Of a stretch of 64,000 bases of DNA, positions 1,923 through 35,977 are shown piece after piece. This stretch comes from Streptomyces agglomeratus (lineage in GTDB: Bacteria > Actinomycetota > Actinomycetes > Streptomycetales > Streptomycetaceae). The stretch is from NCBI RefSeq assembly GCF_001746415.1, contig NZ_MEHJ01000001.1, positions 6,826,501 to 6,890,500 on the forward strand, written 5' to 3'. Position 1 is the stretch's first letter. Each line of letters starts with the position of its first letter. The position numbers and the translations under genes were made by a program. The notes beneath the pieces were generated by a model. It saw only the letters and a program-made list of their open reading frames with translations. It did no database searches and was not told where the DNA came from.

Positions 1923-1929
1923 TTCAGCC

Positions 1930-2235: not shown

Positions 2236-2256
2236 TTGCCGCGCTAGCTTGATGGT

Positions 2257-2484
2257 GTGGCGAAGACTCAGCTGAACGTACGCGTGGACGAGACCACCGC
2301 CGAGGCCGCGCGCCAACGCGCCCTCCAGCGCGGGATGAGCGTGAACCGCTACATCGAGGAGCTGGTCCGACAGGACGCCGGTGAGGTGGGGCGTACGTTC
2401 GTCGAGGCCGCGTCCGACTTCATGAAGCAGTACGAATCGGTCTTCGCTGAGGAGTTCGGCGCGGAGCGCGAAGGCAAGCGTTGA
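2257..2484 (+). CDS. Ribbon-helix-helix antitoxin of a toxin-antitoxin pair
   Basis: A 75-residue protein starting at GTG 2257 (KTQLNVRVDETTAEAARQRA). The N-terminal beta strand followed by two helices (about residues 3-45, with MSVNRYIEELV) matches the Arc/MetJ-type RHH DNA-binding fold of small antitoxins. The C-terminal part (about 46-75) is acidic and probably binds the toxin. The stop overlaps the start of the next gene (TTGA at 2481-2484), so the two are translationally coupled, as toxin-antitoxin pairs usually are. Autorepression through the RHH dimer is expected from the family. Confidence 0.75.
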   Translation: MAKTQLNVRVDETTAEAARQRALQRGMSVNRYIEELVRQDAGEVGRTFVEAASDFMKQYESVFAEEFGAEREGKR

Positions 2485-2852
2485 CTCTCAGGATCGACCT
2501 CGCCTGGCTCCTCATGATCGCCGAACACAAGACCCCGGGCGACCCCCAGGTCGTCGACTGGGGCGCGCTCGTCGCCGCCGTCGCCCGGCACGAGGCGGAG
2601 ATATTCGGCATCCCCGTCTACCGCGATCCGGCGGCCCGCGCGGCCGCCCTTCTCCAGCTCCTGCTGCACGTGCCGGCCCTGGAGCGGTCGAACGCGATGT
2701 TCGCCTCGGCCGTCGCGTACGGCTACCTCGTCGCCTGCGGGCTGAAGGTCGTGACCTCCCCCGAACAGGTGCGGGACCTGGCCAGGCTCATCAAGGAGAG
2801 CAAGGCGGACGTCCACGTGATCGCGGAGGAACTGCGGCAGTGGAGCCGTTGA
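2481..2852 (+). CDS. Fic/Doc-like toxin component with degenerate active-site motif
   Basis: A 123-residue protein, the size of Doc toxins, starting at a TTG that overlaps the antitoxin stop. It has Doc-like helical content, and its central segment HVPALERSNAMFASAVAYGYL sits where Fic/Doc proteins carry HPFxxGNKRTA. The first His, an Asn and the following F-A helix are kept, but the phosphate-binding G-N-(K/G)-R core is not. It may be a distant or inactive member, or a lineage-specific variant of the active site. Pairing with the RHH protein supports a toxin role; biochemical activity is uncertain. Confidence 0.6.
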   Translation: MTLRIDLAWLLMIAEHKTPGDPQVVDWGALVAAVARHEAEIFGIPVYRDPAARAAALLQLLLHVPALERSNAMFASAVAYGYLVACGLKVVTSPEQVRDLARLIKESKADVHVIAEELRQWSR

Positions 2853-2862
2853 GCCACCTGGC

Positions 2863-3561
2863 CTAGCTGCCGGCCGCCGGGGCGTCGGGCGCTTCCGGTG
2901 GCCGGTTCGCCACCCCCAGCACGCACGGCGACGACGGCAGCCTGGGCCCCTTCTCCGGTACGGACAGCCGCCGATGGGTGCCGATGTCGAAACCGGCCGC
3001 GGCGATGGCCGCGAGCGGGTCGCGGGCGGTGTGGCAGCCGCCGAAGAGCACCGGCCACACGGTACGGTCCAGCGCCCGCTGAACCGTCACCATGGCCCGG
3101 CCCTCGCCCCTGCCGTGCTCGAAGAAGCGGAGCTCCCCGCCGGGCCGCAGTACGCGCCTGATCTCGGAGAGGGCGCGCGGTACGTCCCGTACGCTGCACA
3201 GCACCAGCGACACCACCGCCGCGTCGAACGCCTCGCTCTTCACCGGCAGCGCTTCGGCCGCGCCCGGCACCACGTCCACCGGGACGCCGGCGTCGAGAGC
3301 CGCCTTCACCGCCAACTGGCGCAGGCTGCGCTCCGGTTCGATCGCCACGACCTCCGAGACCGCCGCCGGGTAGTGCGCGAAGTTCAGCCCGTTGCCCGCG
3401 CCGATCTCGATGATCCGGCCGGAGAGGCCGGCCAGCAGTTCGTCCCGGTGTGCGGCCACCCCGCCTCTGAGGTCGGCAGCCACGCTGAGCCGGGCGTAGA
3501 AGCGCGCGAAGAGCGGGTGGTGCACGGCGTCCCGGGGAACCTTGCTGCGGCGCTCGGGCAT
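2863..3561 (-). CDS. Class I SAM-dependent methyltransferase
   Basis: A 232-residue UbiE/COQ5-like methyltransferase. Motif I is IIEIGAGNGLNFAHYP (about 50-65), the acidic residue of motif II is in AIEPERSLR, and motif III-type LRPGGELRFFEHG follows near 135-148. A C-terminal substrate-binding part contains VLFGGCHTARDPLAAI. The closest general group is membrane-lipid or small-molecule methyltransferases of the Methyltransf_11 type; the substrate is not determined. It is convergent with the toxin-antitoxin pair (10 bp between stops) and upstream of nothing obviously related. Confidence 0.85.
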   Translation of the reverse strand: MPERRSKVPRDAVHHPLFARFYARLSVAADLRGGVAAHRDELLAGLSGRIIEIGAGNGLNFAHYPAAVSEVVAIEPERSLRQLAVKAALDAGVPVDVVPGAAEALPVKSEAFDAAVVSLVLCSVRDVPRALSEIRRVLRPGGELRFFEHGRGEGRAMVTVQRALDRTVWPVLFGGCHTARDPLAAIAAAGFDIGTHRRLSVPEKGPRLPSSPCVLGVANRPPEAPDAPAAGS

Positions 3562-3601
3562 CGCGGTACCTCCTCCGTGGGGCGGTCGGACACCGGGATA
3601 C

Positions 3602-3964
3602 TTACCCCGCCGGGCGGCTCACTCCGCGCACGAAGCAGAACTCGTTGCCTTCCGGGTCCAGCAGCACCTGGAAGGAGCCGGCCACGTCGGTGACGATGCC
3701 GCCGGTTCTGGTCGCGCCCAGACGCTCCGCCTCGGCGCTCGCTGCCTCGATGTCGCCCGCGTCCAGGTCCAGATGCAGCCGGTTCTTGACCGCCTTCCCC
3801 TCGGGTACGCGCTGGAAGGCGACCCGGGTCCAGTCCGGCGGGTCGACGTACGACCAGTCCGGGCTCCGGTCGACCGGATCGCCGCCGAGCAGGGCGGCCC
3901 AGAAGCGGACCAGTACGGCAGGCTCCGCGCAGTCGAAAACGATCTCGTCGATACGTGCTCGCAT
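3602..3964 (-). CDS. VOC (glyoxalase/bleomycin-resistance fold) protein
   Basis: A 120-residue protein starting at ATG 3964 (MRARIDEIVFDCAEPAVLVRFW). The two beta-alpha-beta-beta-beta units of the VOC superfamily can be followed, with HLDLDAGDIEAASAEAERLG in the second half and the typical ending DPEGNEFCFVRG. Many members bind a divalent metal or a small hydrophobic ligand; this sub-group is uncharacterised. An upstream in-frame start near 4015 exists, but the extra residues do not resemble the family. Confidence 0.85.
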   Translation of the reverse strand: MRARIDEIVFDCAEPAVLVRFWAALLGGDPVDRSPDWSYVDPPDWTRVAFQRVPEGKAVKNRLHLDLDAGDIEAASAEAERLGATRTGGIVTDVAGSFQVLLDPEGNEFCFVRGVSRPAG

Positions 3965-4034
3965 GGCGACGACCTTACGGGCGCCAAGGCGCTTACACGC
4001 ATGCGGTACGTACACGGCGCATGCGAGACCGGCC

Positions 4035-4730
4035 CTACGGGCGCCAGCTCCCGCCCAGCAGCGGCGCGAGCCACGTCGCGGCGCGGGTCCGGAACTCGGT
4101 GGGCGGCAGGGCTCCCGCGCCCTCCGGAACGGCGCCCAGCAGCGGGGCTCCCGCGGCCGCCACCGGCAGGTCGGTGAGATTGCAGCGTTCGGCGAGGCCG
4201 GGGGCGGCGGGCCAGCTGCCGACGACGACTCCGAGCATCTCGATGTCGCGGGCGCGCAGCGCCTCGGCGGTCAGCGCCGTCCAGTTCAGGGTGCCGAGGG
4301 CGGCCGGAGTGACGACGAGGACGGGCGCGTCCAGGAGCCGGGCGACGTCGGCGAGGGTGGCGCCGTCGTCGTCGAGGCGGACGAGGAGGCCGCCGGCGCC
4401 CTCCACGAGTACCAGGTCGTACTCGGCGTCGAGCTTCGACGCCGCCGCGGCGATGTCGTCCGGCCGTACGGGGGGCATACCGGCGCGCCGGGCGGCGGTC
4501 GCGGGCGCCAGCGGCTCGGGGAACCGTGCGAGTTCGACCGCCGCGACTCCCTCACCCGCCAGCCGCACGACCTCGTCGGCGTCGCCCGGCTCTCCCGCGT
4601 CGACGCCGGTCTGAGCGGGTTTGAGCACGGCGACGGTACGGCCCTGGGCGCAGGCGACGGCTGCAAGCGCGGCCGTGACGACGGTCTTGCCGATCTCGGT
4701 TCCGGTGCCGCTGACGACGATGACGGCCAT
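4035..4730 (-). CDS. bioD: Dethiobiotin synthetase BioD
   Basis: A 231-residue BioD. It closes the ureido ring of dethiobiotin from 7,8-diaminopelargonate, CO2 and ATP in the cytosol. The P-loop is at the start (VVSGTGTEIGKT, residues 4-15), followed by the substrate-binding KPAQTG. The LVEGAGGLLVRL motif (about 110-121) is the second family signature, and VVTPAALGTLN follows. It is third in the minus-strand bioB-bioA-bioD series, 141 bp downstream of bioA, so it may share that transcript or have its own start. Confidence 0.95.
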   Translation of the reverse strand: MAVIVVSGTGTEIGKTVVTAALAAVACAQGRTVAVLKPAQTGVDAGEPGDADEVVRLAGEGVAAVELARFPEPLAPATAARRAGMPPVRPDDIAAAASKLDAEYDLVLVEGAGGLLVRLDDDGATLADVARLLDAPVLVVTPAALGTLNWTALTAEALRARDIEMLGVVVGSWPAAPGLAERCNLTDLPVAAAGAPLLGAVPEGAGALPPTEFRTRAATWLAPLLGGSWRP

Positions 4731-4871
4731 GCGGTGCGCTCCTCGCGGTGATGTGTGTCTGGGCGGTGGTTCATGTCCGTGGGCGGCCCGCTTCCCCAGC
4801 CCGGAACGGCCGGAACGGCCGGCGTCAAGCCCGTCCGGCCGTCCGGCGCCCGGGGGACGTCGTTCGTCCGG

Positions 4872-6167
4872 TCACGTGCCTGCCGTGGCCGCCGCTCGTA
4901 CCGCCCCGCAGATCCTGGCCAGGTCAGCGTCGTTCGTGACGTACGGCGGCATGGTGTAGATCAGGTCGCGGAACGGGCGCAGCCACACGCCCTCCCGGAC
5001 CGTCGCCGCCGTGGCCGCCGCCATGTCGACCTCGCGGTCCAGTTGTACGACGCCGATCGCACCCAGCACCCGTACGTCCCGTACCCCCGGCAGCCCGGCG
5101 ACCTCGGCCAGACCTTCCTTCAGCCCCGCCTCGATGCGCTTGACCTCGCCCTGCCAGTCCTGGCCGAGCAGCAGGTCGATCGAGGCGCACGCGACCGCCG
5201 ATGCCAGGGGGTTGCCCATGAACGTCGGGCCGTGGGCCAGCACCGGGACCTCGCCCCGCGAGATGCCGTCCGCCACCTCCGACGTGCACAGCGTCGCCGC
5301 CATGCTCAGGTAACCGCCGGTCAGGGCCTTGCCGACGCACAGCACATCGGGCGAGACCGAGGCGTGCTCCGAGGCGAAGAGCGTTCCCGTACGGCCGAAA
5401 CCGGTCGCGATCTCGTCGAAGACCAGCAGGACGCCGTGCTCGTCGCACGCCTCCCGCAGCACCCGCAGGTACTCGGGCGCGTGGAAACGCATGCCGCCCG
5501 CGCCCTGCACCACCGGCTCCACGATCACCGCGGCCAGTTCGTCCGCGTGCCCGGCGATCAGCGCGCGCAGCCGGTCGGCGTACGCCGCGTCGTACTCGGC
5601 GGGCGGCGCGTCCGCGAAGACCTGGCGCGGCAGCGCGCCCTGCCACAGTTCGTGCATCCCGCCCTCGGGATCGCACACCGACATCGGCTGCCAGGTGTCC
5701 CCGTGGTAGCCGCCGCGCCAGGTCAGCAGCCGCTGCTTGCCGGGCCGGCCCACCGAGCGCCAGTACTGGAGGCACATCTTGACCGCGACCTCGACCGACA
5801 CCGATCCGGAGTCGGTCAGGAAGACGTGCCGCAGGGGCTCGGGAGTGATCTCCACCAGTTTCGCCGCCAGGCGCACGGCGGGCTCGTGAGTGAGCCCGCC
5901 GAACATGACATGGCTCATCCGGTCGAGCTGCCCGCGCACCGCCTCGTTGAGCACGGGGTGGTTGTAGCCGTGGACGGCCGACCACCAGGATGACATGCCG
6001 TCGATCAACTCGTCCTGGCCGTGGGCGGGCTGAGCGAGCCGAAGCCGTACGCCGGACGCGGACTCCACCAGCAGCGGCTCCGCACGGCCCGGCATGGGAC
6101 CGTACGGATGCCATACGTGATCCTGGTCCAGCCGGAGCAGCTCGGCGGGGGCGAGCGGCTCAGGCAT
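4872..6167 (-). CDS. bioA: Adenosylmethionine-8-amino-7-oxononanoate aminotransferase BioA
   Basis: A 431-residue class-III PLP aminotransferase that makes 7,8-diaminopelargonate from KAPA using SAM as amino donor. The N-terminal [12 protein letters not shown] is the classic BioA signature, followed by [16 protein letters not shown]. The PLP lysine is in [15 protein letters not shown] (about 280), and [15 protein letters not shown] carries the cofactor-binding Asp. Its ATG overlaps the last 8 bp of bioB (6160-6167), showing coupling. Confidence 0.96.
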
Positions 6168-7338
6168 TGGGCGCGAGGTCCGTACCGGCGCCGCGCCGGC
6201 GTACCGACACGAGGTCCGTACGGGCGCCCGGAATACCCGGCGCCTCCGCGGCGTCCGAGGTCTCCCCGGCCTCCACGGCGCCCGCTGCCGCCTCGGCCGC
6301 CGGCTCCCCGCACGCCGACGCGCAGCCGCCGCCGCTCCGGTGCTCCGGCAGCGTCGTCCTGTCGGTCCCCTCCACCTCGAAACCGGCGTCGGCGATCATC
6401 TCCAGGTCCGCCTGGCCGGCCTGGCCCTCACTGGTCAGGTAGTCGCCGAGGAAGATCGAGTTGACCAGGTGCAGCGCCAGCGGCTGCATGGTGCGCAGGT
6501 GCACCTCGCGGCCGCCCGCGAGCCGTACCTCCACGTCCGGGCAGACGAACCGCACCATCGCGAGAATCCGCAGCGCCCGCTGCGGCGTCAGGTTCCACTC
6601 CTTGGCGAGCGGGGTTCCCTCGAAGGGGATCAGGAAGTTCACGGGCACGGAGTCGGGGTCGAGCTCGCGCAGCGCGAAGACCACGTCCACCAGGTCGGCG
6701 TCCGTCTCGCCCATGCCCGCGATCAGACCGGAGCACGCGGACATGCCCGCTGCCTGCGCCTGCTGGACGGTCTCCACACGGTCGGCGTAGGTGTGGGTCG
6801 TGGTGATGGCCCCGTACGTCGACTCCGAGGTGTTCAGGTTGTGGTTGTACGCGTCGGCTCCCGCCGCCCGCAGGCGCTCCGCCTGCCCGTCGGACAGCAG
6901 CCCGAGGCAGGCGCACACCTCGACGTCCTCGTTCTGGTCCTTGATCGCCTCGATCGTCTTCGAGACGCGGTCGACGTCCTTGTCCGTCGGACCGCGCCCG
7001 CTCGCCACCAGGCACACCCGCTTCGCGCCGCCCGCGACCCCGGCGGCCGCAGCCTTGGAAGCCTCGTCGGGCTTCAGCCAGGTGTACTTGAGGATCCCGG
7101 CCTTCGAGCCGAGCCGCTGCGAGCAGTACGAACAGTCCTCGGGGCACAGGCCCGACTTGAGGTTCACCAGGTAATTGAGTTTCACCCGCCGTCCGAACCA
7201 CTGGCGGCGTACCTTTCCGGCCGCGGCCACCACATCGAGCAGCTCGTCGTCCGAGGTCGCCAGCACGGCGAGCGCTTCTTCGCGGGTCGGCAGCTCGCGC
7301 CGCAGCCCCTTCTCCACCAGGGTGTTCAGCAGGTCCAT
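6160..7338 (-). CDS. bioB: Biotin synthase BioB with an Ala/Glu-rich C-terminal extension
   Basis: A 392-residue radical-SAM enzyme that inserts sulfur into dethiobiotin. The 4Fe-4S cluster motif CxxxCxxC is in [12 protein letters not shown] (about 59-70), and [20 protein letters not shown] and [13 protein letters not shown] segments are conserved. BioB is normally about 320-350 residues. The extra about 55 residues after [13 protein letters not shown] are Ala/Glu-rich, contain a [12 protein letters not shown] stretch with two Cys, and look disordered. It is first in the bioBA(D) run and divergent from bioF, with a palindrome in the shared upstream region. Confidence 0.96.
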
Positions 7339-7404
7339 GGTGCCGATCCTGACCTACGGCACCGCCTGTGGCCAAGGAGGAACCGCACAAGAGCGGCCTC
7401 ACGA

Positions 7405-7424
7405 GGTGTGGGTATTGCCACACC
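7405..7424. promoter_or_regulatory. Candidate biotin-repressor operator between bioB and bioF
   Basis: GGTGTGG (7405-7411), a 6-nt spacer and CCACACC (7418-7424) form a perfect 7-bp inverted repeat. It sits in the 143-bp region between the divergent bioB and bioF start codons, directly before a possible bioF promoter (CCTGAC near 7424-7429 and TAGTGT at 7446-7451). Its position suggests one operator controlling both directions. The protein that binds it is not in the window. Confidence 0.5.
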
Positions 7425-7481
7425 CTGACCTCGCGCGCGCCCGGCTAGTGTCTGTGGGCTGCCTACAAAAGGGACTCTTCC

Positions 7482-8639
7482 ATGCCCCAGGGACCGTTCG
7501 ACCCGTTCGACTGGATCGACGAGCAGGCGGCGGTACGCGCGAAGGCCGGGCTCGTCAGGACCCTGCGCCCGCGCTCCGCCGAGTCCGCCCTGCTCGACCT
7601 CGCGAGCAACGACTACCTCGGCCTCACCCACCACCCGGAGGTCACGTCCGCCGCCGCCGAGGCCGCCCGCCGCTGGGGCGCCGGGGCCACCGGTTCGCGG
7701 CTCGTCACCGGAAGCACCCGGCTGCACGCCGAACTTGAGAGGGAATTGGCCGATTTCTGCGGCTTCGAGGCAGCTCTCGTACTTTCCTCCGGTTACGCCG
7801 CCAATCTGGCCGCACTCACCGCGCTCAGCGGCCACGGCTCGCTGATCGTCTCCGACGCCCTCAACCACGCCTCGATCGTCGACGGCTGCCGCCTCTCGCG
7901 CGCCACGACCTCCGTAGTGCCGCACGCCGACCCGGACGCCGTACGCAAGACGCTCGACGCGCACGACGGCCGCGCCCTCGCCGTCACCGACTCGGTCTTC
8001 TCGGTGGACGGCGACGCGGCGCCCCTCGCGGAACTGGCGGCCGCATGCCGTGCGTACGGCGCCGCCCTCCTCGTCGACGACGCGCACGGCCTCGGTGTCC
8101 TCGGCGACGGCGGCAGGGGGGCACCGCACGCGGCGGGGCTGGCGGGAGCGGACGGTGTGGTCGCCACCCTCACGCTGTCGAAGTCGCTGGGCAGCCAGGG
8201 CGGAGCGGTCCTCGGTCCGGCCAGGGTCATCGACCACCTGGTCAACACGGCCCGTACGTTCATCTTCGACACCGGCCTGGCACCGGCCGCCGCGGGCGCC
8301 GCGCTGGCGAGCGCGAGGCTGCTGCGCCGGGAGCCGGAACTCGCGGGGCGAGCCCGTACGGTCGCCGCGTCACTGCACGGGGGGCTGACGGACGCCGGTC
8401 TGTCCGCCGTACGCCCGGACGCGGCCGTTGTGTCGGTCCTGGCGCCCTCGCCGGAGGCGGCGGTGCGGTGGGCCGCCGACTGCCGGGCGGCCGGCCTCGT
8501 CGTGGGCTGCTTCCGCCCGCCGTCGGTACCGGACGGGATCTCCCGGCTCAGGCTCACCGCACGCGCGGACCTGACGGACGCGCAGGTCGCACAAGCGGTG
8601 GCAACGGTCGTACGGACCGCTCCCTCCGCCGCTTTCTGA
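7482..8639 (+). CDS. bioF: 8-amino-7-oxononanoate synthase BioF
   Basis: A 385-residue PLP-dependent alpha-oxoamine synthase that condenses pimeloyl thioester with alanine, the first ring-precursor step of biotin synthesis. The N-terminal LLDLASNDYLGLTHHP, the GxGATGSRLVTGSTRLH substrate loop, DDAHGLGVLG and the PLP lysine motif TLTLSKSLGSQGG (about 230-242) are all present. It is transcribed away from bioB. The start at 7482 (MPQGPFDPFDWIDEQ) is the first in-frame ATG, 38 bp after the putative -10 box. Confidence 0.95.
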   Translation: MPQGPFDPFDWIDEQAAVRAKAGLVRTLRPRSAESALLDLASNDYLGLTHHPEVTSAAAEAARRWGAGATGSRLVTGSTRLHAELERELADFCGFEAALVLSSGYAANLAALTALSGHGSLIVSDALNHASIVDGCRLSRATTSVVPHADPDAVRKTLDAHDGRALAVTDSVFSVDGDAAPLAELAAACRAYGAALLVDDAHGLGVLGDGGRGAPHAAGLAGADGVVATLTLSKSLGSQGGAVLGPARVIDHLVNTARTFIFDTGLAPAAAGAALASARLLRREPELAGRARTVAASLHGGLTDAGLSAVRPDAAVVSVLAPSPEAAVRWAADCRAAGLVVGCFRPPSVPDGISRLRLTARADLTDAQVAQAVATVVRTAPSAAF

Positions 8640-25327: not shown

Positions 25328-27160
25328 ATGAGCAAGCCCATCGAGGACTACGCCCTTCTCAGCGACCTCGAATCTGCCGCGATGCTCGGCAGGGACGGGT
25401 CGGTCGACTGGCTCTGTTTCCCGCGCTTCGATTCTCCCGCCTGTTTCGCCGCACTGCTCGGCACGGGGGACAACGGATTCTGGCGCGTGGCGCCCGTCGG
25501 CGCCGGAGCCTGCTCCCACCGGGCATACCGCCGGGACACGCTTGTGCTCGATTCGTACTGGGAGACGGCGGCCGGCACCGTGCGCGTCACGGACTTCATG
25601 CCGCCGCGCGGCCGGCAGCCCTGCGTGGTGCGCACCGTGGAGGGCTTGTCCGGTTCAGTCACCCTGCGCAGCGAACTCAAGCCGCGTTTCCACCAGGGAA
25701 GAATCCTTCCCTGGGTCCGGGTCACCGACAACTGCACGGTCGCGATCGCCGGGCCGGACTCGCTGTGGCTGAGCGCCGACGGCCCGGTGCGGACAGTGGA
25801 CCGGACGGACGCCACCGTCCTCGAACTCACCGTACCGGCGGGCCGGCGGACCACCCTGATGCTGGCCTGGACGCCCTCCCACCTCACCGGACTGCCCGCA
25901 CCCCTGTGCGTGCCGCCGGAGACGGCGCTCAAGGCGACCACCGACTTCTGGCGCGAGTGGACGGCCCAGTGCCGCTACGAAGGACCGTGGCGCGAAGCCG
26001 TCGTACGGTCCCTGATCACCCTGAAAGCGCTCACCTACGCCCCCACCGGCGGCATCGTCGCGGCCCCCACCACCTCGCTCCCCGAATGCGCGGGCGGCGA
26101 ACGCAACTGGGACTACCGGTACTGCTGGCTGCGCGACTCCACCCTCACCCTCTCCTGCCTGCTACGCAGCGGCTACCGGGACGAGGCGACGGCCTGGCTC
26201 GACTGGCTGCTGCGCGCGATCGCGGGCGAACCCGCCGATCTACAGGCCGTGTACGGCGTCGAAGGCCACCGGCACCTCCCCGAGACCGAGGCACCATGGC
26301 TGCCCGGCTATGAGGGCGCGCGGCCGGTCAGGTTCGGGAACGCCGCGGTGGGGCAGTTCCAGCTCGACGTGTACGGCGAGGTGCTGGACACGCTGTACTG
26401 GTCGCTGCGCGCCGGCATCCCCCTGGAGTCCCACATGTGGAGCCTGGTCAACTCCCTGATGCGCTATCTGCGCACGCACTGGCGCGAACCGGACGAAGGG
26501 CTGTGGGAGGTCCGCGGGCCGAGGCGCCAGTTCGTCCATTCCAAGGTCATGTCATGGGTCGCCGCCGACCGCGCCCTGCGCATGGGACACCTCCTCGGCC
26601 GGAACGGGGCCTCCGCGCAGTGGCGGGCCATGCGCGACGCGGTGCACCGGGAAGTCTGCCGCGAGGGCTGGGACGCGGAGCAGCAGTCGTTCGTCCAGTC
26701 CTACGGCTCCTCCGCACTCGACGCGTCCGCGCTGCTGATGCCCAAGCTCGGTTTCCTTTCCCCCGACGACCCGCGGGTGCGCGGCACGGTCCGGGCGATG
26801 CGGGCGCTGGACCACGAGGGCTTCGTACGCCGGTACGCGCAGAGCGGCCACGGCGCGGACGGCGTGCATGCCGTGGACGGCATGCACGGCTCCGAGGGCA
26901 CGTTCGTGGCGTGTTCGCTCTGGTACGCCGACGCCCTGGCCGCGACCGGACACCTGGACCGGGCGCGGGAGACCTTCGAACGGGTCCTGGGCATCCGCAA
27001 CGACGTCGGGCTGCTGTCGGAGCAGTGGGACCCGGGCGGGCGGCGGCAGCTGGGGAACGCCCCGCAGGCGTTCAGCCACATCGCCCTGGTGGACACGGCG
27101 TTCGCCCTCCAGCGGGCCGAGTCCGCGCCCGGACCGGGCGCCGAGCGGCAGCTCACCTGA
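25328..27160 (+). CDS. Glycoside hydrolase family 15 (glucoamylase/trehalase-like)
   Basis: A 610-residue cytosolic GH15 protein beginning MSKPIEDYALLSDLESAAML. An N-terminal beta-sandwich (to about 220) leads into the (alpha/alpha)6 barrel. The acid region is RNWDYRYCWLRDSTLTL (about 260) and the base region is VGLLSEQWDPGGRRQLGNAPQAFSH (about 560). FGNAAVGQFQLDVYGEVLD is a strong subfamily signature shared by bacterial trehalases and glucosidases. No signal peptide. The substrate, trehalose or malto-oligosaccharide, cannot be decided from sequence. Its end overlaps the convergent methyltransferase by 8 bp. Confidence 0.92.
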   Translation: MSKPIEDYALLSDLESAAMLGRDGSVDWLCFPRFDSPACFAALLGTGDNGFWRVAPVGAGACSHRAYRRDTLVLDSYWETAAGTVRVTDFMPPRGRQPCVVRTVEGLSGSVTLRSELKPRFHQGRILPWVRVTDNCTVAIAGPDSLWLSADGPVRTVDRTDATVLELTVPAGRRTTLMLAWTPSHLTGLPAPLCVPPETALKATTDFWREWTAQCRYEGPWREAVVRSLITLKALTYAPTGGIVAAPTTSLPECAGGERNWDYRYCWLRDSTLTLSCLLRSGYRDEATAWLDWLLRAIAGEPADLQAVYGVEGHRHLPETEAPWLPGYEGARPVRFGNAAVGQFQLDVYGEVLDTLYWSLRAGIPLESHMWSLVNSLMRYLRTHWREPDEGLWEVRGPRRQFVHSKVMSWVAADRALRMGHLLGRNGASAQWRAMRDAVHREVCREGWDAEQQSFVQSYGSSALDASALLMPKLGFLSPDDPRVRGTVRAMRALDHEGFVRRYAQSGHGADGVHAVDGMHGSEGTFVACSLWYADALAATGHLDRARETFERVLGIRNDVGLLSEQWDPGGRRQLGNAPQAFSHIALVDTAFALQRAESAPGPGAERQLT

Positions 27161-27890
27161 CCGCGGTCAGCAGCACCATCCCCGAATCGCCGTAATCCGG
27201 CAGCGTCGGGTCGGCGTCGATCCGGCCGACCGAGAGCCGCCGGGTCAGTGGCCGGAAGACCTCCGTGACGACGGCCGGGTCCACCGGACAGCCGGGCCAC
27301 CGGGACGCGGGTCCGATGCGGTACGTGGGCATGTTCTCCATGAACGCCGCGACCAGATGCCCGCCGGGCACGACCGAGCGTACGAAGTGGCGGCAGAAGT
27401 CCGTGAACTCGCCGCGGTCCTCGGTGACGCCCTCCGCGACGAAGCTCATCGAGGCGGCGCCGTAGGTGCCGGGCGTGAGGTCCCGTACGTCCGCGTGGAC
27501 GACCCGTACCCGCGCCAGAGCCTCCTCGGCGGTCGCCGGAAGGCCGGGATTCAGGCGCCGGCACAGCGCGTAGAACGGCTGCCAGCTGTCGTCCGGGCCC
27601 CGGTCGAGCTGCCGGGTCAGGTACGCGACACCGGACGCACCGGCCTCGACCGCGTCGATCCGCCGGCTCGCGGCGACCGCGAGCATAAGCGGATACAGAT
27701 TGGGACCGGCCCCGAACTCGACGGAACGGGCGACGCCGCCGGCCGCGAACCGGCGGTAGAACGCCGAGTGGTGGGCGATGACCGCCGCGTCCGACGGGTG
27801 CAGCTCCCGGTAGTTCTCCGCCAGGTAGTCCTCGACGGGCCAGCGGTCCCAGTACACATCGTCGTTGCGCGTCGGCGGACGTCCGGACAC
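27153..27890 (-). CDS. SAM-dependent methyltransferase of NNMT/PNMT-like type
   Basis: A 245-residue methyltransferase. The N-terminal WDRWPVEDYLAENYRELHP resembles the start of NNMT/PNMT/TEMT small-amine methyltransferases, with motif I in VEFGAGPNLYPLMLA (about 58-72), and VHADVRDLTPG and FVRSVVPGGHLVAAFMENM further on. The general group methylates small amines; actinobacterial members are largely uncharacterised. It starts 7 bp after the stop of the GGDEF-EAL-PLP fusion gene, so it should be co-translated and may act on that enzyme's product. Confidence 0.85.
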   Translation of the reverse strand: MSGRPPTRNDDVYWDRWPVEDYLAENYRELHPSDAAVIAHHSAFYRRFAAGGVARSVEFGAGPNLYPLMLAVAASRRIDAVEAGASGVAYLTRQLDRGPDDSWQPFYALCRRLNPGLPATAEEALARVRVVHADVRDLTPGTYGAASMSFVAEGVTEDRGEFTDFCRHFVRSVVPGGHLVAAFMENMPTYRIGPASRWPGCPVDPAVVTEVFRPLTRRLSVGRIDADPTLPDYGDSGMVLLTAVR

Positions 27891-27897
27891 GGCTCCT

Positions 27898-30800
27898 TCA
27901 GCTCCGCCCGGACAGTGGGAAGCGCTCGCCCAGCCGGGTCAGCGTGTCGTTGAGCCGGTCGATGTCCTCGTCGGAGTTCAGCGCCGTGATCTGGACGCGG
28001 AAACCGACCCGGTCGCGCGGGACGAGCGGATAGGCCGCCAGGGTCACGTAGATGCCGCTGTCCCACAGGAAACGGGACACGGCGTCGAGGTCGGAAGCGT
28101 TCGTCAGCGGAATCTCCACGATCGGCAGCGCGCCCTCGTTCGGGGTGGCGATGCCGAGGCCGCGGACGTGGTCGAGCACCCACACCGCCTTGCGGTGCAG
28201 GCCGGCCCGGACGACGTCACCCCGGCGGTCGTTGACCTCCAGGCCGGCGAGCGTGGTGGCGAGCGAAGCCGTCGGCGAGGGGCCGGAGTACAGATAGGGA
28301 CCGGCGGCGACCTTCAGCAGGTCCTTGAGCGGCGCGGATAGCGCCAGAAAGGCCAGCAGCGACGAGTACGCCTTGGAGAAGCCGCCGACCAGCACGATGT
28401 TGTCGTACGTCTCCCCGGTGTGCCGTACGACGCTGTTGCCACGCGATCCGTACGGGCAGAGTTCGTCGGCCCGCCGTTCACCGATGACGCCGAAGCCGTG
28501 CGTGTCGTCGATGTACATCGTCGCGTCCAGGTCGCGGCAGATCGCGGCCAGCTCGGGCACGTCCGGGATGTTCCCGGTCATGCTGTTCACACCGTCCAGG
28601 CAGACCAGCCGGGGGGAGCCGGCCGGTACGCCGCGCAGCAGGGCGTCGAGCTGCTCCGGCCGGTCGGCGCGGAAGCGTTGCAGCGTCGCGCCCTGGCCCC
28701 GGGCGGACACACAGCCGTCGTACACGGTCCGGTGCGCCGCCGCCTCGACGAAGACATGGCCCTGGCCCGCCAGGACGGGGATCACCGAGGCGTGGATCAG
28801 GGTGGCGGTGGGCAGCAGCAGTGTGTCGGGCGCGCGCAGCAGAGCGGCGAGCCGCTCCTCGATCTCGGGGTAGAGCCGCGGGCTGCCGAGCAGCCGTGAC
28901 CAGCTGGGATGCGTTCCCCAGCGGCGTACGACCGGTTCGATCGCGTCGATGATCTCGGGATCGCAGTCGAAGCCGAGGTAGTTGCAGGAGGCGAAGTCGA
29001 CCAGCCAGTGGTCGCCGCTGCGGATGTGCCTGCCGCGTACCTCGTCGAAGACCGCGTCGCTCATCGGGCTCGTCAGCCGCAGACGTTCGAGATCCCCCCA
29101 GCGCGGGTCGATCGCCCCCGGGGGTGGTGCAACCGCTTCTCGCATAGAGTTCTCCTTCTCCGGGGCGGCCGGGCCCAGGACTTCGGGGGCGGGGGCGGCG
29201 GGCGGAGGGCCGGCAGGGGCCCGTGCGGCCGGCGGGGCCGGGCGGGTGGCCACCGCCCGTTCGCCGGTCCGCCCGGCCGCCGGCCGGAAATGTCCGTTGG
29301 GACGGCGCAGGAGGAAGGCGCCCTGCTCCAGGGTCATCGGCCGGGCGAAGAGGTACCCCTGCCCGAAACGGCAGCCCATACGAGCGAGGAGATCGCGTTG
29401 CGCCGCTTCCTCGATGCCCTCCGCGATGACCTGAAGGCCGAGCGTGTCGGCGATGTGGACGATCCCTTCCACGAGCGCGACCTGCTGGGAGTCGGTCGTG
29501 ATGTCGTCGATGAACGACTTGTCGATCTTGAGTACGTCGATCGGGAACTCCCGCAGATAGCGCAGCGAGGAGAAGCCCGTTCCGAAGTCGTCCACGGCGA
29601 TGCGTACGCCCAGGTCCTTCAGGGCATGCATGACGGCCTCGATCTGACCGTCCCTGCGCATGAGCACCGTCTCGGTGAGTTCCAGTTGCAGCGACCCGGG
29701 AGAGAGCCCGGGGGTCGCCAGTACCTTGCACACGTCGTCCAGGAACTCCGTCTCCCTGAACTGACGGCCCGACACGTTGACACTGACGTACGGCGCGGAG
29801 CGCGGTGCGGCCCGCTGGAGCCCGGCGATGTCGGTGGTGGCGCTGTCCAGCACCCAGGACCCCAGCGGCGCTATGTGCCCGGTCTCCTCGGCCAGCGCGA
29901 TGAACTGCTGCGGCGGAATTAGGCCGCGCTGGGCGTGCGGCCAGCGGGCCAGCGCCTCGAAACCGACCACCTCACCCGCGGTGAGGTCCACGACGGGCTG
30001 GTAGCGCAGCGCGAATTCGTGATTGGCGACCGCCGTGCCCAGATTCGCCTGGAGGTCGTGCCGCTCCAGCATGCGGACTCCCAGCTTCGGCTGGAACCGG
30101 CGCCACTGGCGCTTGCCGGCGGCCTTGGCGGCGTACAGCGCCAGGTCGGCGTGGCTGAGCAGGTCCTCGCTGTCGGCGCTGTCCACCGCCGTGGCCACGC
30201 CCACACTCGCCGAGATGCTCACGGAACCGCCGGTCAGGCGAAACGGCCGGTTGAGGGTGTGCACGACCTGCGCGGCCAGGAGTTCGGCGTCGACGGGCTC
30301 CTTCGCGTCTTCCATCAGCAAGGCGAACTCGTCGCCGCCGAGCCGGGCGGCGGTGTCGGTGCGGCGCAGCGTCTCCGAAAGCCGGCCGCCCACCGCCGCG
30401 AGCAATTGGTCCCCGACGCTGTGGCCCATCGTGTCGTTGACGACCTTGAAGTCGTCGAGATCGATGAACAGGACGCAGGTCAGGGACGACTCGCGGCGGC
30501 CGCGCAGCAGCGCGCGCTCGATGCGCTCCAGCAGCAGCGTGCGGTTGGGAAGGCCGGTCAGCGAATCGTGAAACGCCCGCTGGGTGAGCTCGTGTTCCAG
30601 CTGGCGCTGCTCGGTCACGTCCCGCAGGGTGGCGACCAGTCCGCGTACGGTCCGGTCGTGGCGCAGGTCGCGGCACCGGACCTGCACCTCGATGCGACCG
30701 TTCTCGCGCGGGACGTACCAGTGGTCCTGCGACTCCCCGTGGTCGCCCTCCCACATGGCCGTCAGGACCCTGGCCGCCCGGTCGCGGTCGCGCGAGTCGA

Positions 30801-32418
30801 CGAGATCGGGCAGCGCCACACCGACCAGGTGCACGTCGCCGAAGACGGCCTGCGCCGAAGGGCTCGCGTAACGGACGGTGTTGTCCTCGTCGATGATGAG
30901 AATGACGTCCGCGGCGTTGCGCACCAGGGTGCGGAAGTACGCCTCGCTCTCCCTGCGGACGATCTCCTGGCGCAGCGCGACGCGCTCCATCGCGAGCCCC
31001 GCGTGCGAGGCCAGGATCTCCAAGGAGCCGCGTGTCTCGTTCAGTTGTCCGGTGGGGCCGGCGGCTATCAGTACACCGGGCAGCTCGCCTCCTGGCGGCC
31101 GGTCGGGCGGGATCATCGGGCACACCACGGCGCTCGGCAGATGGTGCAGCCGGGAGGCGATGCGCGGGCCGAGTTCCGTCACCGGCACCACGTGGGTGTG
31201 GCGCAGCGCCGGAGTGACCGGCGGGCCGGGCACCGTCTCGCCCGTACGGGCGTCGCGCCATTCGCCGGGGCCCCCGGCGGGAGCGTCCGGCCCCGCGCGC
31301 GCGTCCTCGCCGCTGCCGGCCGACAGCAGCATGCTCGCGTGCCCTGCCTCCGGCCCGGTCAGGGCCGCGACGGCGACGTCGCAGGAGCGCGCCACCTCCT
31401 GCGGTGTGGTCGCCGACACCAGCGAGGCCGACGCCGTACGCAGGGCCACTTCACGGGCCACCGCCTTGCGGTGGGCCACGACCATGCCCGTGAGGCGCAG
31501 GATGACCAGGAGGATCAGGAGTCCGGAGAAGGCGGCGATGACGGCCGCGTCCTGAGCGGTGCCGCGCAGCCCCTCGTACAACAGGATCCCGGGCGCGATC
31601 AGCACGGCCGCGGAGAGCAGCAACAGCCGTGTCGGAGGCGGAAGCAGCGACTGCGGCTGGTGCGAGCGCGCGGTCAGCTCCACCATCGACGGATGCAGCG
31701 CCGCCAGGCCCCAGGCCGTGTAGAAGACCACCCAGCCCGTGTCCAGCACCGTGCCGGCTTGCCACAGTCCGTTGAGCTGGAGGATCCCGTACGCGATGTC
31801 GAAGCCCAGCAGCGTGACGGTGCCGAGGACGAGCAACTGCACGGAACGGTTGCGGCCCGTCAGGAATCCCGGCGTGAGCAGCCGTACCAGCAGCGCGAGC
31901 ACCAGTACGTCACCGAGCGGGTAGGCGATGCTGATGGCGCGCTGCACCCAGGTCAGCCCCTCGACGCGGGTGAGGGGCTGCACGAGGAAGACCCACACCG
32001 GGAGCGCGAGTCCGGCGGTGAAGATCAGCGCGTCCAGCAGGCTCGGCAGGTCGCGCCCCACCCACCGGTACCTGACCAGGCCCAACAGGCCCACGGCGAA
32101 CAGCGGGTACGTCGCCAGGTAACAGGCGTCCGCGGGCGAGGGGAACGGGTTGGACGCGTCGAAGTACTGCTCGAGGACGTGGTAGTACGTGTCTCCCGCG
32201 GCGAAGGCGAGCAGTCCGGCAGCGAGCACCCACCACGGCCAGCGGTGCGCCGGCCGGTGGATGTACACGCCCGCTACGACGGCCACGACGCCGGCCAGAC
32301 CGATGACCGCCCACAGCGGCGCGTGCGCCTGGGGCAGCGTCAGACACACTGCTGTCGCACCGGCGACGAGGACGACGTAACCGGCCATGAGCCCACGCGT
32401 CGTCCGGGTCACAGGCAT
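27898..32418 (-). CDS. Membrane GGDEF-EAL c-di-GMP enzyme fused to an alpha-oxoamine-synthase-like PLP enzyme
   Basis: One uninterrupted 1506-residue frame. Residues about 1-310 contain about ten transmembrane helices, followed by a GAF-like region and a PAS domain (from about 490, AYFRTLVRNAADVILIIDED). GGDEF is at 694-698 in RLGGDEFALL with an intact I-site RRTD five residues before it. EAL is at 821-823 (GFEALARW), with DDFGTGFSSLRYL and GQGYLFARP conserved, so both synthesis and breakdown of c-di-GMP are plausible. A Pro/Ala linker (about 1045-1090) joins residues 1092-1506, an AONS-like enzyme (SCNYLGFDCDPE, YIDDTHGFGVIG, PLP Lys1349 in GGFSKAYSS). An AGAAGGAG site 7 nt before Met1092 (ATG 29145) could also give a free PLP enzyme. 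Confidence 0.88.
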   Translation of the reverse strand: MPVTRTTRGLMAGYVVLVAGATAVCLTLPQAHAPLWAVIGLAGVVAVVAGVYIHRPAHRWPWWVLAAGLLAFAAGDTYYHVLEQYFDASNPFPSPADACYLATYPLFAVGLLGLVRYRWVGRDLPSLLDALIFTAGLALPVWVFLVQPLTRVEGLTWVQRAISIAYPLGDVLVLALLVRLLTPGFLTGRNRSVQLLVLGTVTLLGFDIAYGILQLNGLWQAGTVLDTGWVVFYTAWGLAALHPSMVELTARSHQPQSLLPPPTRLLLLSAAVLIAPGILLYEGLRGTAQDAAVIAAFSGLLILLVILRLTGMVVAHRKAVAREVALRTASASLVSATTPQEVARSCDVAVAALTGPEAGHASMLLSAGSGEDARAGPDAPAGGPGEWRDARTGETVPGPPVTPALRHTHVVPVTELGPRIASRLHHLPSAVVCPMIPPDRPPGGELPGVLIAAGPTGQLNETRGSLEILASHAGLAMERVALRQEIVRRESEAYFRTLVRNAADVILIIDEDNTVRYASPSAQAVFGDVHLVGVALPDLVDSRDRDRAARVLTAMWEGDHGESQDHWYVPRENGRIEVQVRCRDLRHDRTVRGLVATLRDVTEQRQLEHELTQRAFHDSLTGLPNRTLLLERIERALLRGRRESSLTCVLFIDLDDFKVVNDTMGHSVGDQLLAAVGGRLSETLRRTDTAARLGGDEFALLMEDAKEPVDAELLAAQVVHTLNRPFRLTGGSVSISASVGVATAVDSADSEDLLSHADLALYAAKAAGKRQWRRFQPKLGVRMLERHDLQANLGTAVANHEFALRYQPVVDLTAGEVVGFEALARWPHAQRGLIPPQQFIALAEETGHIAPLGSWVLDSATTDIAGLQRAAPRSAPYVSVNVSGRQFRETEFLDDVCKVLATPGLSPGSLQLELTETVLMRRDGQIEAVMHALKDLGVRIAVDDFGTGFSSLRYLREFPIDVLKIDKSFIDDITTDSQQVALVEGIVHIADTLGLQVIAEGIEEAAQRDLLARMGCRFGQGYLFARPMTLEQGAFLLRRPNGHFRPAAGRTGERAVATRPAPPAARAPAGPPPAAPAPEVLGPAAPEKENSMREAVAPPPGAIDPRWGDLERLRLTSPMSDAVFDEVRGRHIRSGDHWLVDFASCNYLGFDCDPEIIDAIEPVVRRWGTHPSWSRLLGSPRLYPEIEERLAALLRAPDTLLLPTATLIHASVIPVLAGQGHVFVEAAAHRTVYDGCVSARGQGATLQRFRADRPEQLDALLRGVPAGSPRLVCLDGVNSMTGNIPDVPELAAICRDLDATMYIDDTHGFGVIGERRADELCPYGSRGNSVVRHTGETYDNIVLVGGFSKAYSSLLAFLALSAPLKDLLKVAAGPYLYSGPSPTASLATTLAGLEVNDRRGDVVRAGLHRKAVWVLDHVRGLGIATPNEGALPIVEIPLTNASDLDAVSRFLWDSGIYVTLAAYPLVPRDRVGFRVQITALNSDEDIDRLNDTLTRLGERFPLSGRS
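29145..29158 (-). promoter_or_regulatory. Internal Shine-Dalgarno and start for the PLP-enzyme half
   Basis: Reading the minus strand, AGAAGGAG precedes an ATG (29145-29143) with about 6-7 nt between them. This is a near-ideal ribosome-binding site inside the long fusion frame, exactly at the junction between the Pro/Ala-rich linker and the PLP enzyme (EKENS/MREAVAPPPGA). It suggests that a separate 415-residue enzyme can be made, or that the two halves were once separate genes. Confidence 0.65.
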
Positions 32419-32521: not shown

Positions 32522-33532
32522 TCAGCCGGTGGCCGAGGAGGCTCCCGCCCGCGCCGGAGGGGGAGAACCCGCGGTGACTGACGGGGCGTTACGCACGGGT
32601 GGCGCCGGGCGGCCGGCGCACCACGACACCGTGCGGCGCAGCCCTTCTTCGAGGGGTACCCGTGGCGTCCAGCCGAGCTGGTCACGGGCCCTGGTGATCA
32701 CCGGCCGCCGGCGCACCGGATCGTCGACGGGCAGCGGGCCGTACTCGATCCGGGAGGCCGACCCGGTGACGACGAGCACGAGCTCCGCGAGTTCGCGGAC
32801 CGTGCGCTCCGTGGGGTCCCCCAGGTTCACCGGCCCGGCGCGGGCGCTGTCGATCATCGCCGTGATGCCGCGCACGAGGTCGTCGACGTAGCAGAAGCTG
32901 CGTGTCTGGCTGCCGTCGCCGCAGACCGTGAGGGGTTCGCCGGCCAGTGCCTGCCGCACGAAGGTGGGCACGACACGGCCGTCGCGGGACCGCATCCGCG
33001 GACCGTACGTGTTGAAGATGCGCACGATGCCCGCGTCGACGCCCGGACCGCGCCGGTACGCCATGGTCACCGCCTCCGCGTAGCGCTTGGCCTCGTCGTA
33101 GACGCTGCGCGGGCCGACCGGATTGACGTTGCCCCAGTAGTCCTCGGGCTGGGGGTGCACCTCGGGGGCGCCGTACACCTCGCTGGTCGAGGCCAGCACG
33201 AAGCGGCCGCCGTGTTCGCGGGCCAGGCGCAGCGCGTTCTCCGTGCCCCTGCTGCCCACGGCCAGGGTCTCCAGCGGCAGCCGGTGGTAGTCGGCGGGCG
33301 AGGCGGGGCTCGCGAGGTGCGCCACGGCGTGCACCGGGCCCGGTACGGGGAGCGGCTCCGTCACGTCGCACCGGACCGGGTGGAAGCGCGGGTCGGCACG
33401 CAGGTGGGCGATGTTCTCCGGATCGCCGGTACAGAAGTTGTCGAGGCACCAGACCGTGTCTCCCCGGCGGAGCAGCGCCTCGCACAGGTGGGAGCCGAGG
33501 AATCCGCCGCCGCCGGTCACCACGACCTTCAT
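32522..33532 (-). CDS. UDP-glucuronate decarboxylase-like SDR (UDP-xylose synthase type)
   Basis: A 336-residue extended SDR from ATG 33532 ([20 protein letters not shown]). Catalytic Tyr/Lys are in [19 protein letters not shown], preceded by [25 protein letters not shown]. This asparagine/proline-rich block and [10 protein letters not shown] are typical of UDP-glucuronate decarboxylases that make UDP-xylose. The C-terminal 40 residues are low-complexity ([20 protein letters not shown]). The start overlaps the stop of UDP-glucose dehydrogenase, the enzyme that would supply its substrate, which supports the assignment. Confidence 0.88.
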
Positions 33533-34848
33533 GACGTCACTCCGATGGGGCGGCCGAGTGCGTGCAGTGACCAGCCCGCCGAGCGCCAGAGCCGTGCGTC
33601 CAGGCAGTTGCGGGCGTCCAGGAGCACCGGTGTGCGCACCATCGGGGCGAGGTCGACCGGGTCGATGGCGCGGTACTCGGGCCAGTGCGTGAGATGCAGG
33701 ACCAGGTCCGCGTCCTCGCACGCCTTGGGGATGTCCAGGGCGTATCCCAGGTCGGGAAAGACCGCTCGCGCGTTGTCCAGGGCCTGCGGGTCGTGCACCC
33801 GTACCGCGGCCCCCTGCTGCCGCACCGCCGCCGCGACGGCCAGGGCGGGGGAGTCGCGCACGTCGTCGCTGCCCGGCTTGAAGGACGCGCCCAGGACGGC
33901 GACCCGGCGGCCGGCGAACGATCCGCCGGCCAGCCGCCTCGCCAGGCTCACCGTCCGCCGCCGCTGCCGGGTGTTGATGCGGTCGACCTCGTGCAGGAAG
34001 GCCACGGAGTCGCCCGCCCCGAGCTCCTCCGCGCGGGCCGCGAAGGCCCTGATGTCCTTGGGGAAGCAGCTCCCGCCGAAGCCGAGGCCCGGTTCGAGGA
34101 AGGGGGCGCCGATCCGGGAGTCCGCGCCGAGGGCCCTGGACAGGACTGTCACATCGGCGCCCGCCGCGTCGCAGACCTCGGCCATCGCGTTGATGAAAGA
34201 GATCTTGGTGGCGAGGAAGGAGTTCGCCGCGACCTTGACCAGTTCGGCCGTTGCGGGGTCGGTACTGAAGTAGGGAACCCCCGCCCGCAGCAGGGGCGCG
34301 TACACCGCGCGTAGGACCGCTTCGGCGTGCGGGCAGGTGACGCCGACGACGATCCGCTCCGGCCGCATGGTGTCCTCCACGGCGGAGCCCTCACGCAGAA
34401 ACTCCGGGTTCCAGGCGATCTCGGTGTCCCGGGTGACCGCGGCGAGTCGCCGCGCGAGCCGGGCCGCCGTGCCTACCGGCACGGTGGACTTGCCGACGAC
34501 CAGGTTGCCGGGACGCAGGTGGCGTGCGAGGCCGTCCATGACGGCGTCGACGTACCGCAGGTCGGCGGCCTCGCCGTCGGCCCGCTGCGGGGTGCCGACG
34601 CACACGAAGTGGACCCGCGCGAACGAGGCGGCCTCGGCGAGGGAGGTGGAGAAGCGGAGCCGGCCGGAGGTGACGGTCCTGGAGAGCAGTTCGTCGAGAC
34701 CGGCCTCGCGCAGGGGCGCCCGGCCCGCCGACAGGGACGCGATCCGTTCGGCGTCGACATCGACGCCGAGCACCTCGTGCCCGAGGTCGGCCATGCACGC
34801 GGCGTGGACCGTCCCGACGTATCCGGTGCCGATGACTGTCATCCGCAT
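33529..34848 (-). CDS. UDP-glucose 6-dehydrogenase
   Basis: A 439-residue UDP-glucose/GDP-mannose dehydrogenase. NAD motif [20 protein letters not shown] is at the start, the catalytic Cys is in [14 protein letters not shown] (about 256-269), and the C-terminal UDP-binding domain has [20 protein letters not shown]. It oxidises UDP-glucose to UDP-glucuronate with two NAD. The start at ATG 34848 follows AGGAG with 7 nt spacing; ATG 34842 is an alternative. It overlaps the decarboxylase gene (ATGA) and follows galE by 10 bp, so these three form one operon. Confidence 0.93.
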
Positions 34849-34858
34849 GACGTCACTC

Positions 34859-35977
34859 CTAACCGTTCGCCCGCCGGGCGTTTCCGGCGTACCCATGGGG
34901 GTTGAGCTGCTGGAATCTCCAGGCGTCCCCGCACATGTCGGCCAGCCCCCGGGTGGGGCGCCACCCCCAGGCGCGCTCCACCGCCGAGGCGTCCGCGACG
35001 AGTTCCGGCACGTCGCCCGGGCGGCGGGACACGATGTCGTACGGGACGGGGGTACCGCACGCCGCACTGAAGGCCGCGACGACTTCGAGAACCGAACGGC
35101 CCTTCCCGAGGCCGAGGTTGTACGTGTGCATGCCGGGGCCGTCGGCGAGGTGGTCCAGCGCCACGCGGTGGGCCTCCACCGTGTCCATGACGTGGATGTA
35201 GTCACGGACCGCCGTCCCGTCGGGCGTGGCGTAGTCGTCGCCGAAGACGCGGAGCCTGTGGCGCCTGCCCACGGCCACCTGGGCGAGGTAGGGCATCAGG
35301 TTCTCGGGCGTTCCGCTGGGGTCCTCGCCGAGCAGTCCGCTGGGGTGCGCCCCGACCGGGGTGAAGTACCGCAGGGCGACCCCGGTGAAGCCAGGGCTCC
35401 GGCGGCACACGTCGGCCAGGATCTGCTCGCAGATCCATTTGGAGGCGGCGTACGGATTCGTGGGGCGGGCAGGGGTGGCCTCGTTCAGCGGTCCGCGTCC
35501 GGCGTCCCCGTAGATGGAACAGGACGAGGAGAACACCATCTGGCGCACCCCGTGCTCGTCCATCGCCCGCAGCAGAGAGGTGGTGCCGCCGACGTTGGTG
35601 TCGTAGTACTCGACGGGCATCCGTGTCGACTCACCCACGGCCTTGTGCGCGGCGAAGTGCACGACGGCGTCCACAGAGTGGCGGTCGAAGACGGCCGACA
35701 GGGCGCGCCGATCACGGATGTCCAGCTCGTACACGGCCCCCACGAACCGGCCGGCGATCCTTTCCACGCGGGCGAAGACCTGCGGTGTGCTGTTGGAGTA
35801 GTTGTCGACGACGATCAGTTCGTAGCCGTGGTCGAGCAGTTCGACGCACGCGTGACTTCCGATGAAGCCGGCGCCGCCGGTGACGAGCACGGTCGACGGT
35901 GGGTTCGGGCGCCCGGGTGTCCCGTGGGCGGGCGCGTCCCGGACGGGGATCACCGGTGCCGGCTCGCTGTGGGTCAT
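34859..35977 (-). CDS. galE: UDP-glucose 4-epimerase
   Basis: A 372-residue GalE that interconverts UDP-glucose and UDP-galactose. After a 27-residue extension, the NAD motif is VLVTGGAGFIGSHACVELL. The conserved VHFAAHKAVGESTRMPVEYY, the Ser region SSSCSIYGD, catalytic Tyr/Lys in NPYAASKWICEQIL, and VRDYIHVMDTVEAH are present. It is first in the minus-strand sugar-nucleotide operon and divergent from a TetR gene across an A+T-rich 177-bp region. Confidence 0.94.
   Translation of the reverse strand: MTHSEPAPVIPVRDAPAHGTPGRPNPPSTVLVTGGAGFIGSHACVELLDHGYELIVVDNYSNSTPQVFARVERIAGRFVGAVYELDIRDRRALSAVFDRHSVDAVVHFAAHKAVGESTRMPVEYYDTNVGGTTSLLRAMDEHGVRQMVFSSSCSIYGDAGRGPLNEATPARPTNPYAASKWICEQILADVCRRSPGFTGVALRYFTPVGAHPSGLLGEDPSGTPENLMPYLAQVAVGRRHRLRVFGDDYATPDGTAVRDYIHVMDTVEAHRVALDHLADGPGMHTYNLGLGKGRSVLEVVAAFSAACGTPVPYDIVSRRPGDVPELVADASAVERAWGWRPTRGLADMCGDAWRFQQLNPHGYAGNARRANG

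Follow-up and report, generated by a model that had tools for sequence, protein, structure and literature searches.

A single gene of Streptomyces agglomeratus, lying in the 64,000 nucleotides of contig NZ_MEHJ01000001.1 that we analysed (positions 6,826,501 to 6,890,500; hereafter, the window), joins a ten-helix membrane protein with GGDEF and EAL domains to an enzyme of the alpha-oxoamine synthase (AONS) superfamily. We confirmed that this fusion is real and conserved beyond a single strain. Relatives in other actinobacteria keep an AONS enzyme next to a sensor of this kind, a pattern suggestive of chemical signalling of a little-known type. For the window protein, we propose that a signal synthase and its own sensor share one polypeptide, a reading that we believe and doubt in about equal measure, the product and its binding being what we infer. 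Cyclic di-GMP (c-di-GMP) governs both the life cycle of Streptomyces and its production of antibiotics. On the question of what its membrane enzymes sense, a synthase kept beside one sensor domain throughout a phylum-wide sample, in varied gene orders and with varied outputs, offers a candidate class of ligand and an enzyme to mutate.

The coding frame runs on the minus strand from 32418 to 27898 without interruption for 1506 codons. On the plus strand, frame 1 of the same interval is broken by stops, and overlapping open reading frames called mechanically are present there, the longest of 880 amino acids. The first-pass annotation of this DNA had described a 1506-residue in-frame fusion of a membrane GGDEF-EAL protein with an AONS-like enzyme, which the open frame, the Pfam domains and the conserved relatives bear out, and had given it about ten helices and intact motifs, including RRTD and the pyridoxal phosphate (PLP) lysine, Lys1349, which an AlphaFold2 model and the motif positions support. 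Conservation, which it had left to a full-length search, is now established: the protein database returned 3621 relatives, and the 120 listed share the architecture, all carrying Aminotran_1_2, GGDEF, EAL and a PAS model at lengths of 1425-1546 amino acids and with up to 85% identity, apart from the window's own entry. Most NCBI entries for the full-length protein are named after the aminotransferase half and JGI entries after the GGDEF half. Since these relatives share the full-length fused architecture, the frame in the window is neither a sequencing error nor a product of chance; an error at the junction, one of two ways in which the annotation had thought its proposal might fail, does not agree with fused relatives being so widespread.

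The other was that all close relatives would have two genes, which is not the case. In a genus sample, an AONS ortholog (E ≤ 1e-90) is present in 68 of 392 genomes. Counting as fused any locus with EAL and AONS within one open frame, 56 of 65 classifiable loci are fused, though nine consist of two adjacent genes (the count is without L047, at a contig end, and L074 and L075, where the AONS match is partial or broken). Two of the fused loci, L053 and L070, have the membrane part upstream in another frame. Searching named genomes with only the c-di-GMP half gave 50 loci, 46 of them with an adjoining AONS match (partial in L157 and L160); L148, L154 and L155 have none adjoining and L131 stops at a contig end. 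Leaving the two partial matches aside, 36 of the 44 classified are fused and eight have two genes. The genus sample and the named loci share organisms, so the counts are kept separate. In family f3 the two genes are separate in 13 of 13 loci, with overlapping stop and start codons (TGATG in ten, ATGA in three). A combined set of 106 loci holds 61 fused and 24 two-gene loci (the 13 of f3, L076 from one other genus and ten Streptomyces), the remaining 21 being 20 loci of a phylum sample and L047. On the AONS tree, at least seven changes between the fused and two-gene states are needed, and strongly supported branches force at least three for the two-gene label. The simplest reading is that two neighbouring genes with coupled translation were joined, and may have come apart again, on several occasions.

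Across the phylum, the AONS gene was found in 23 of 396 sampled genomes. An independent search of the same sample for the ten-helix domain identified 82 genomes, and every one of the 23 AONS genomes has a copy on the AONS contig, 105-4232 bases off (as a fusion in G000 and G095). The order of the two varies: the sensor precedes AONS in the Streptomycetaceae loci and in each of the 13 f3 loci, and among 20 distant loci of the phylum sample that we compared (G834 being left out) AONS comes first, on the same strand, in 15, and the two lie on opposite strands in L099, L109 and L115. The output varies as well. In the same 20 loci, the ten-helix protein adjoining AONS carries a GGDEF or GGDEF-EAL output in 12 and a histidine kinase in eight (L097, L098, L100, L102, L109, L111, L114 and L115), with the ten-helix genes of L096, L104, L107, L111 and L113 truncated where the locus ends. 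A tree of the domain, in which output labels cover the AONS-linked rows and unlinked rows are unlabelled, requires at least four changes for the kinase label (seven rows) and mixes kinase with GGDEF outputs inside an AONS-linked group of 14 distant rows. Since the sensor is kept beside AONS through differing outputs, on this comparison of sequences the stable partner of AONS is the ten-helix sensor domain, not the c-di-GMP machinery, and we read the pair as a synthase and a sensor.

Further ten-helix proteins occur in the genus (for example in G110, G182 and G382), about 50-66% identical to the window domain; their frames mostly span about 1050-1180 codons. Some are in genomes that have no AONS ortholog, and they are possible paralogues. 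A tandem pair of ten-helix genes lies downstream of AONS in G854:C79, G742:C26 and G655:C59, the nearer one being a histidine kinase (L097, L098 and L102).

The AONS part carries the catalytic residues of its superfamily. His1229 is conserved in 151 of 151 rows, Asp1305 in 150, Lys1349 in 145 and Arg1474 in 151, the rows being 150 loci (without L074 and L075) plus the window once more as reference. From alignments with serine palmitoyltransferase, we take these to be the stacking histidine, the aspartate at PLP-N1, the PLP lysine and the carboxylate-binding arginine, respectively. Among solved structures serine palmitoyltransferase ranked best (E 3e-34), followed by BioF and Kbl types, with CAI-1 synthase far behind (E ~1e-5), which makes the comparison with CAI-1 offered in the first-pass annotation a weak one by sequence. 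The part matched 11 NCBIfam models and fell below the curated cut-off of every one: BioF (TIGR00858) with 161.7 bits against 426.45, three serine palmitoyltransferase models with 151.6 against 500, 132.2 against 640 and 112.4 against 670, and CqsA/LqsA (NF005526) with 56.8 against 428. As no curated cut-off was reached, the domain is best treated, by sequence, as an AONS subfamily of its own. Its probable reaction couples a fatty-acyl group with an amino acid. A distant member, L115 (41% identity), has an AMP-binding ligase, a carrier protein and, last, AONS in one chain (4266-7763, plus strand); a hybrid histidine kinase that has the ten helices as well as REC and Hpt domains is encoded divergently (944-4234, minus strand). 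In L180, close relatives of the AONS (82%) and ligase (70%) parts of this chain stand in line, adjoining ten-helix and GGDEF-EAL matches, an arrangement seen at the level of sequence matches. The chain of L115 and these parts in L180 point to acyl-thioester substrates. That a biotin-pathway or other housekeeping AONS was simply captured by chance is largely refuted and scarcely credible: the BioF model does match, below its cut-off as given above, yet the window holds a separate BioF-like gene (7482-8639) beside bioA- and bioB-like genes, and an AONS gene in just 68 of 392 genus genomes does not fit a housekeeping role.

The c-di-GMP half of the window protein has both its GGDEF and its EAL catalytic motifs intact. 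Across relatives the GGDEF residues are kept in 139-143 of 150 rows and the EAL glutamate in 143 of 150, some of the misses being histidine-kinase rows or cut genes. Judged by these motifs, the fused protein looks able to make and break c-di-GMP. The AlphaFold2 model places ten membrane-length helices within residues 5-334, the last of which (291-334) probably extends on as a signalling helix. Residues 1-313 gave no Pfam family match at E ≤ 1. The features are collected in Table 1.

Table 1. Features of the fused gene and its 3' neighbour, in window coordinates (pLDDT, predicted local distance difference test; pTM, predicted template modelling score; SAM, S-adenosylmethionine)
Feature	Position	Strand	Basis or remark
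Entire fused gene: ten-helix membrane domain, PAS, GGDEF, EAL, linker, AONS	27898..32418	-	1506 codons and stop; frame, Pfam, full-length relatives
Ten-transmembrane sensor domain, residues 1-334	31417..32418	-	AlphaFold2 pLDDT 90.7, pTM 0.88
PAS domain, residues 494-606	30601..30939	-	Pfam, best E 9e-10
GGDEF domain, residues 615-770; RRTD I-site at 685, GGDEF at 694	30109..30576	-	Pfam E 2e-44
EAL domain, residues 792-1027; EAL at 821, DDFGTG at 943	29338..30045	-	Pfam E 1e-74
Disordered linker, residues 1048-1104, holding the internal start	29107..29277	-	pLDDT <50 at model residues 264-320
Internal Shine-Dalgarno-like GAAGGAGA, 5 bases ahead of ATG	29151..29158	-	
Internal ATG in frame, codon 1092; close to where the standalone AONS gene of two-gene relatives begins	29143..29145	-	
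AONS enzyme, residues 1092-1506; 415 amino acids from internal start	27901..29145	-	Pfam Aminotran_1_2 at 1176-1491, E 4e-21
PLP lysine codon, Lys1349 in GGFSKAYSS	28372..28374	-	K in 145/151 rows
SAM-dependent methyltransferase, SCO2525-like	27153..27890	-	126 bits, below family cut-off 240; first start codon 7 bases past stop of fused gene

The junction between the two halves contains an internal start, and the first-pass annotation had left open that two proteins are made. A strict test for such a start was positive in seven of the 61 fused loci, the window included, and in 91 of 9577 control windows. The start is retained in the fused window and its nearest relatives (L009, S. albidochromogenes L116 and Streptomyces sp. 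ISL-98 L137). The suggestion of two products thus holds for the window, where the start is real, matches that of the separate gene and may release a free 415-residue synthase as well; it does not extend to the other 54 fused loci, where AONS seems to exist solely in fused form. The same data bear on whether the fusion is incidental, that is, whether coupled adjacent genes lost the intervening stop, AONS is still made from the internal start and the fused form has no special role. The strong start kept in the window, the near relatives that alternate between fused (L010, L091) and two-gene (L011, L023) and the repeated changes of state on the tree would all fit; we nevertheless find this very unlikely, as the fusion is apparently the sole route to AONS in the 54 loci that fail the start test. 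A model of EAL with AONS shows a 57-residue disordered linker and no confident relative placement of the two (pTM 0.53). As measured across the fused loci, the linker has 29-123 residues in the 60 besides the window.

The genes around AONS point, by their sequence, to a product that is exported or modified. Of the 86 loci that extend 800 bases or more on the 3' side of AONS, 72 carry a homologue of the SCO2525-like methyltransferase on that side, within 100 bases in 67 of these 72; 11 of the 14 loci without one belong to f3. A major facilitator superfamily (MFS) transporter was found near AONS in 13 of 108 loci, many of them too short to reveal one: four of Streptomycetaceae (L031, L034, L094 and L076) and nine distant. 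In L107 and L113, a reductase lies between AONS and the sensor gene. We also observed in L076 (1416-3488, minus strand) a single 690-residue frame comprising an MFS transporter and a methyltransferase. Immediately upstream of the fused gene and on its strand, the window carries two NAD-dependent epimerases and a gene of UDP-glucose dehydrogenase type (32522-35977), sugar-nucleotide genes of which the first epimerase and the dehydrogenase also have upstream relatives in L010, L011, L012 and L091. About 20 kb from the fused AONS, a biotin-type cluster (4872-8639) has a class-III aminotransferase (bioA-like), a radical SAM/BATS protein (bioB-like) and the divergent BioF-like gene, which aligns with the AONS part by BLASTP (34% over 191 residues).

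The mechanism that we propose would run as follows. The sequence of AONS shows the chemistry of a PLP enzyme that condenses acyl thioesters and amino acids; from its presumed substrates it would make a lipid-like aminoketone. This product would be modified by the methyltransferase next door, joined in some lineages by a short-chain reductase, and exported by an MFS transporter where there is one. The product, which should partition into membranes, would then bind to the ten-helix domain, either in the cell that made it or in a neighbour, and the long last helix and the PAS domain, both visible in the architecture, would relay the signal to GGDEF-EAL, shifting c-di-GMP locally. Fusion would hold the synthase at the membrane next to its sensor. 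The neighbourhood evidence favours, short of proof, a sensor that reads the AONS product.

Several observations weigh against this proposal. The ten-helix domain stands without AONS in 18 of 20 unlinked copies that we checked, hand-picked from the higher-scoring matches and not strictly the top 20, and in six of 74 genomes of the genus that hold it. The PLP lysine is replaced by R or N in L013, L017, L129 and L135, with the frame kept and no methyltransferase match nearby, possibly an enzyme-dead version to judge from the substitution; in L028 and L133 it is replaced by Q, with both the frame and the methyltransferase kept. The likeness of the ten-helix domain to seven-transmembrane receptors is unreliable. 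Finally, gene order fits either direction, product to sensor or sensor to product. In the second case, the ten-helix domain would read another cue, such as membrane state or a nutrient, its c-di-GMP or phosphorelay output would control the activity or expression of AONS, and the product would be a lipid or metabolite made on demand, not a ligand. The linkage of AONS to the ten-helix domain fits this equally; GGDEF-EAL is placed between sensor and enzyme in the fusion, and a receiver-domain gene that could act on transcription is found near three of the eight histidine-kinase loci (L100, L109 and L114, their sequences judged by eye). We consider it rather unlikely, since the disordered linker and the low pTM of the model leave direct allosteric control by EAL unsupported and Pfam detected in the fused protein no c-di-GMP-binding domain beyond those of the GGDEF-EAL half. 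The bifunctional protein of the first-pass annotation, in which c-di-GMP state is linked to synthesis, stands in part: both halves keep most of their catalytic residues across the loci and, in the phylum sample, the genes stay together when unfused, and its direction, from c-di-GMP to synthesis, is one of the two.

A protein of this kind has been studied in S. venezuelae. CdgF (vnz02140 / sven0451) was described as 10TM-PAS-PAC-GGDEF-EAL and predicted to be bifunctional; with a C-terminal FLAG tag it was of low abundance and found in the membrane fraction only, its mutant indicated no role in development, and the cues read by the N-terminal sensory domains, that of CdgF included, were stated to be unknown (PMC6205966, available portions). 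In our genome G015, the eight GGDEF loci agree with the S. venezuelae gene numbers both in their order and in their spacing (r = 0.9998 for ordered pairs). The fused gene of this genome (L066), without an internal start by either test, lies at 485-490 kb, the position expected for cdgF. CdgF is thus probably the fused protein, provided that G015 is S. venezuelae, as gene order and spacing indicate. The window protein resembles it in its 10TM-PAS-GGDEF-EAL order, with both motifs intact, and differs in that the published architecture ends at EAL, AONS being unmentioned in the portions available (PMC6205966). In the open-licence PMC literature that we searched, as far as its text was accessible, we found neither a GGDEF-EAL protein joined to AONS nor an AONS part described for CdgF. 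If AONS preceded the FLAG tag in that construct, the fractionation of CdgF would place AONS at the membrane there. It could also be that the fusion mainly puts a soluble acyl-condensing enzyme where the acyl chains are, the c-di-GMP half being independent. Eukaryotic serine palmitoyltransferase is a membrane-placed acyl-condensing enzyme, and serine palmitoyltransferase is the nearest relative of AONS by sequence. The recovery of tagged CdgF from membranes only (PMC6205966) also agrees with such a tether; we think it quite unlikely all the same, because it leaves unexplained why the same sensor domain, with differing outputs, stands beside separate AONS genes. Returning to the synthase and sensor, their broadest form would be a phylum-wide, undescribed system of actinobacterial signalling, with a lipid-like AONS signal, a ten-helix receptor and an exchangeable output, repeatedly fused in Streptomyces, CdgF included; this we put forward tentatively, with doubt slightly ahead of belief.

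Among known systems, CqsA/CqsS and LqsA/LqsS likewise comprise a synthase of the AONS superfamily and a membrane sensor kinase (PMC3376566, in the text available), and the CqsS 6TM domain can drive a different second-messenger enzyme upon binding its AONS-made ligand (PMC4821796, likewise). The likeness lies in a synthase gene beside a polytopic membrane sensor, which is a histidine kinase in eight of our 20 distant loci. The differences are the ten helices of the modelled sensor against six in CqsS, a synthase much closer to serine palmitoyltransferase than to CqsA, and an output that is often c-di-GMP turnover, with EAL and AONS in one frame in most genus loci. Bacterial serine palmitoyltransferase, including a version with an acyl carrier protein and acyl-ACP synthetase (PMC9386255, as far as available), is the best sequence match and has catalytic residues in common with the AONS part, and the distant member that joins an AMP-binding domain, a carrier and AONS recalls it; the enzyme described here differs in falling below the cut-offs of that family (best 152 of 500 bits) and in being paired with a sensor. 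By analogy, the best reading would be the logic of CqsA/CqsS with a c-di-GMP output, often as one polypeptide, and the system is best filed within the arrangement of AONS synthase and membrane sensor, to which the c-di-GMP output and the fusion are the new features.
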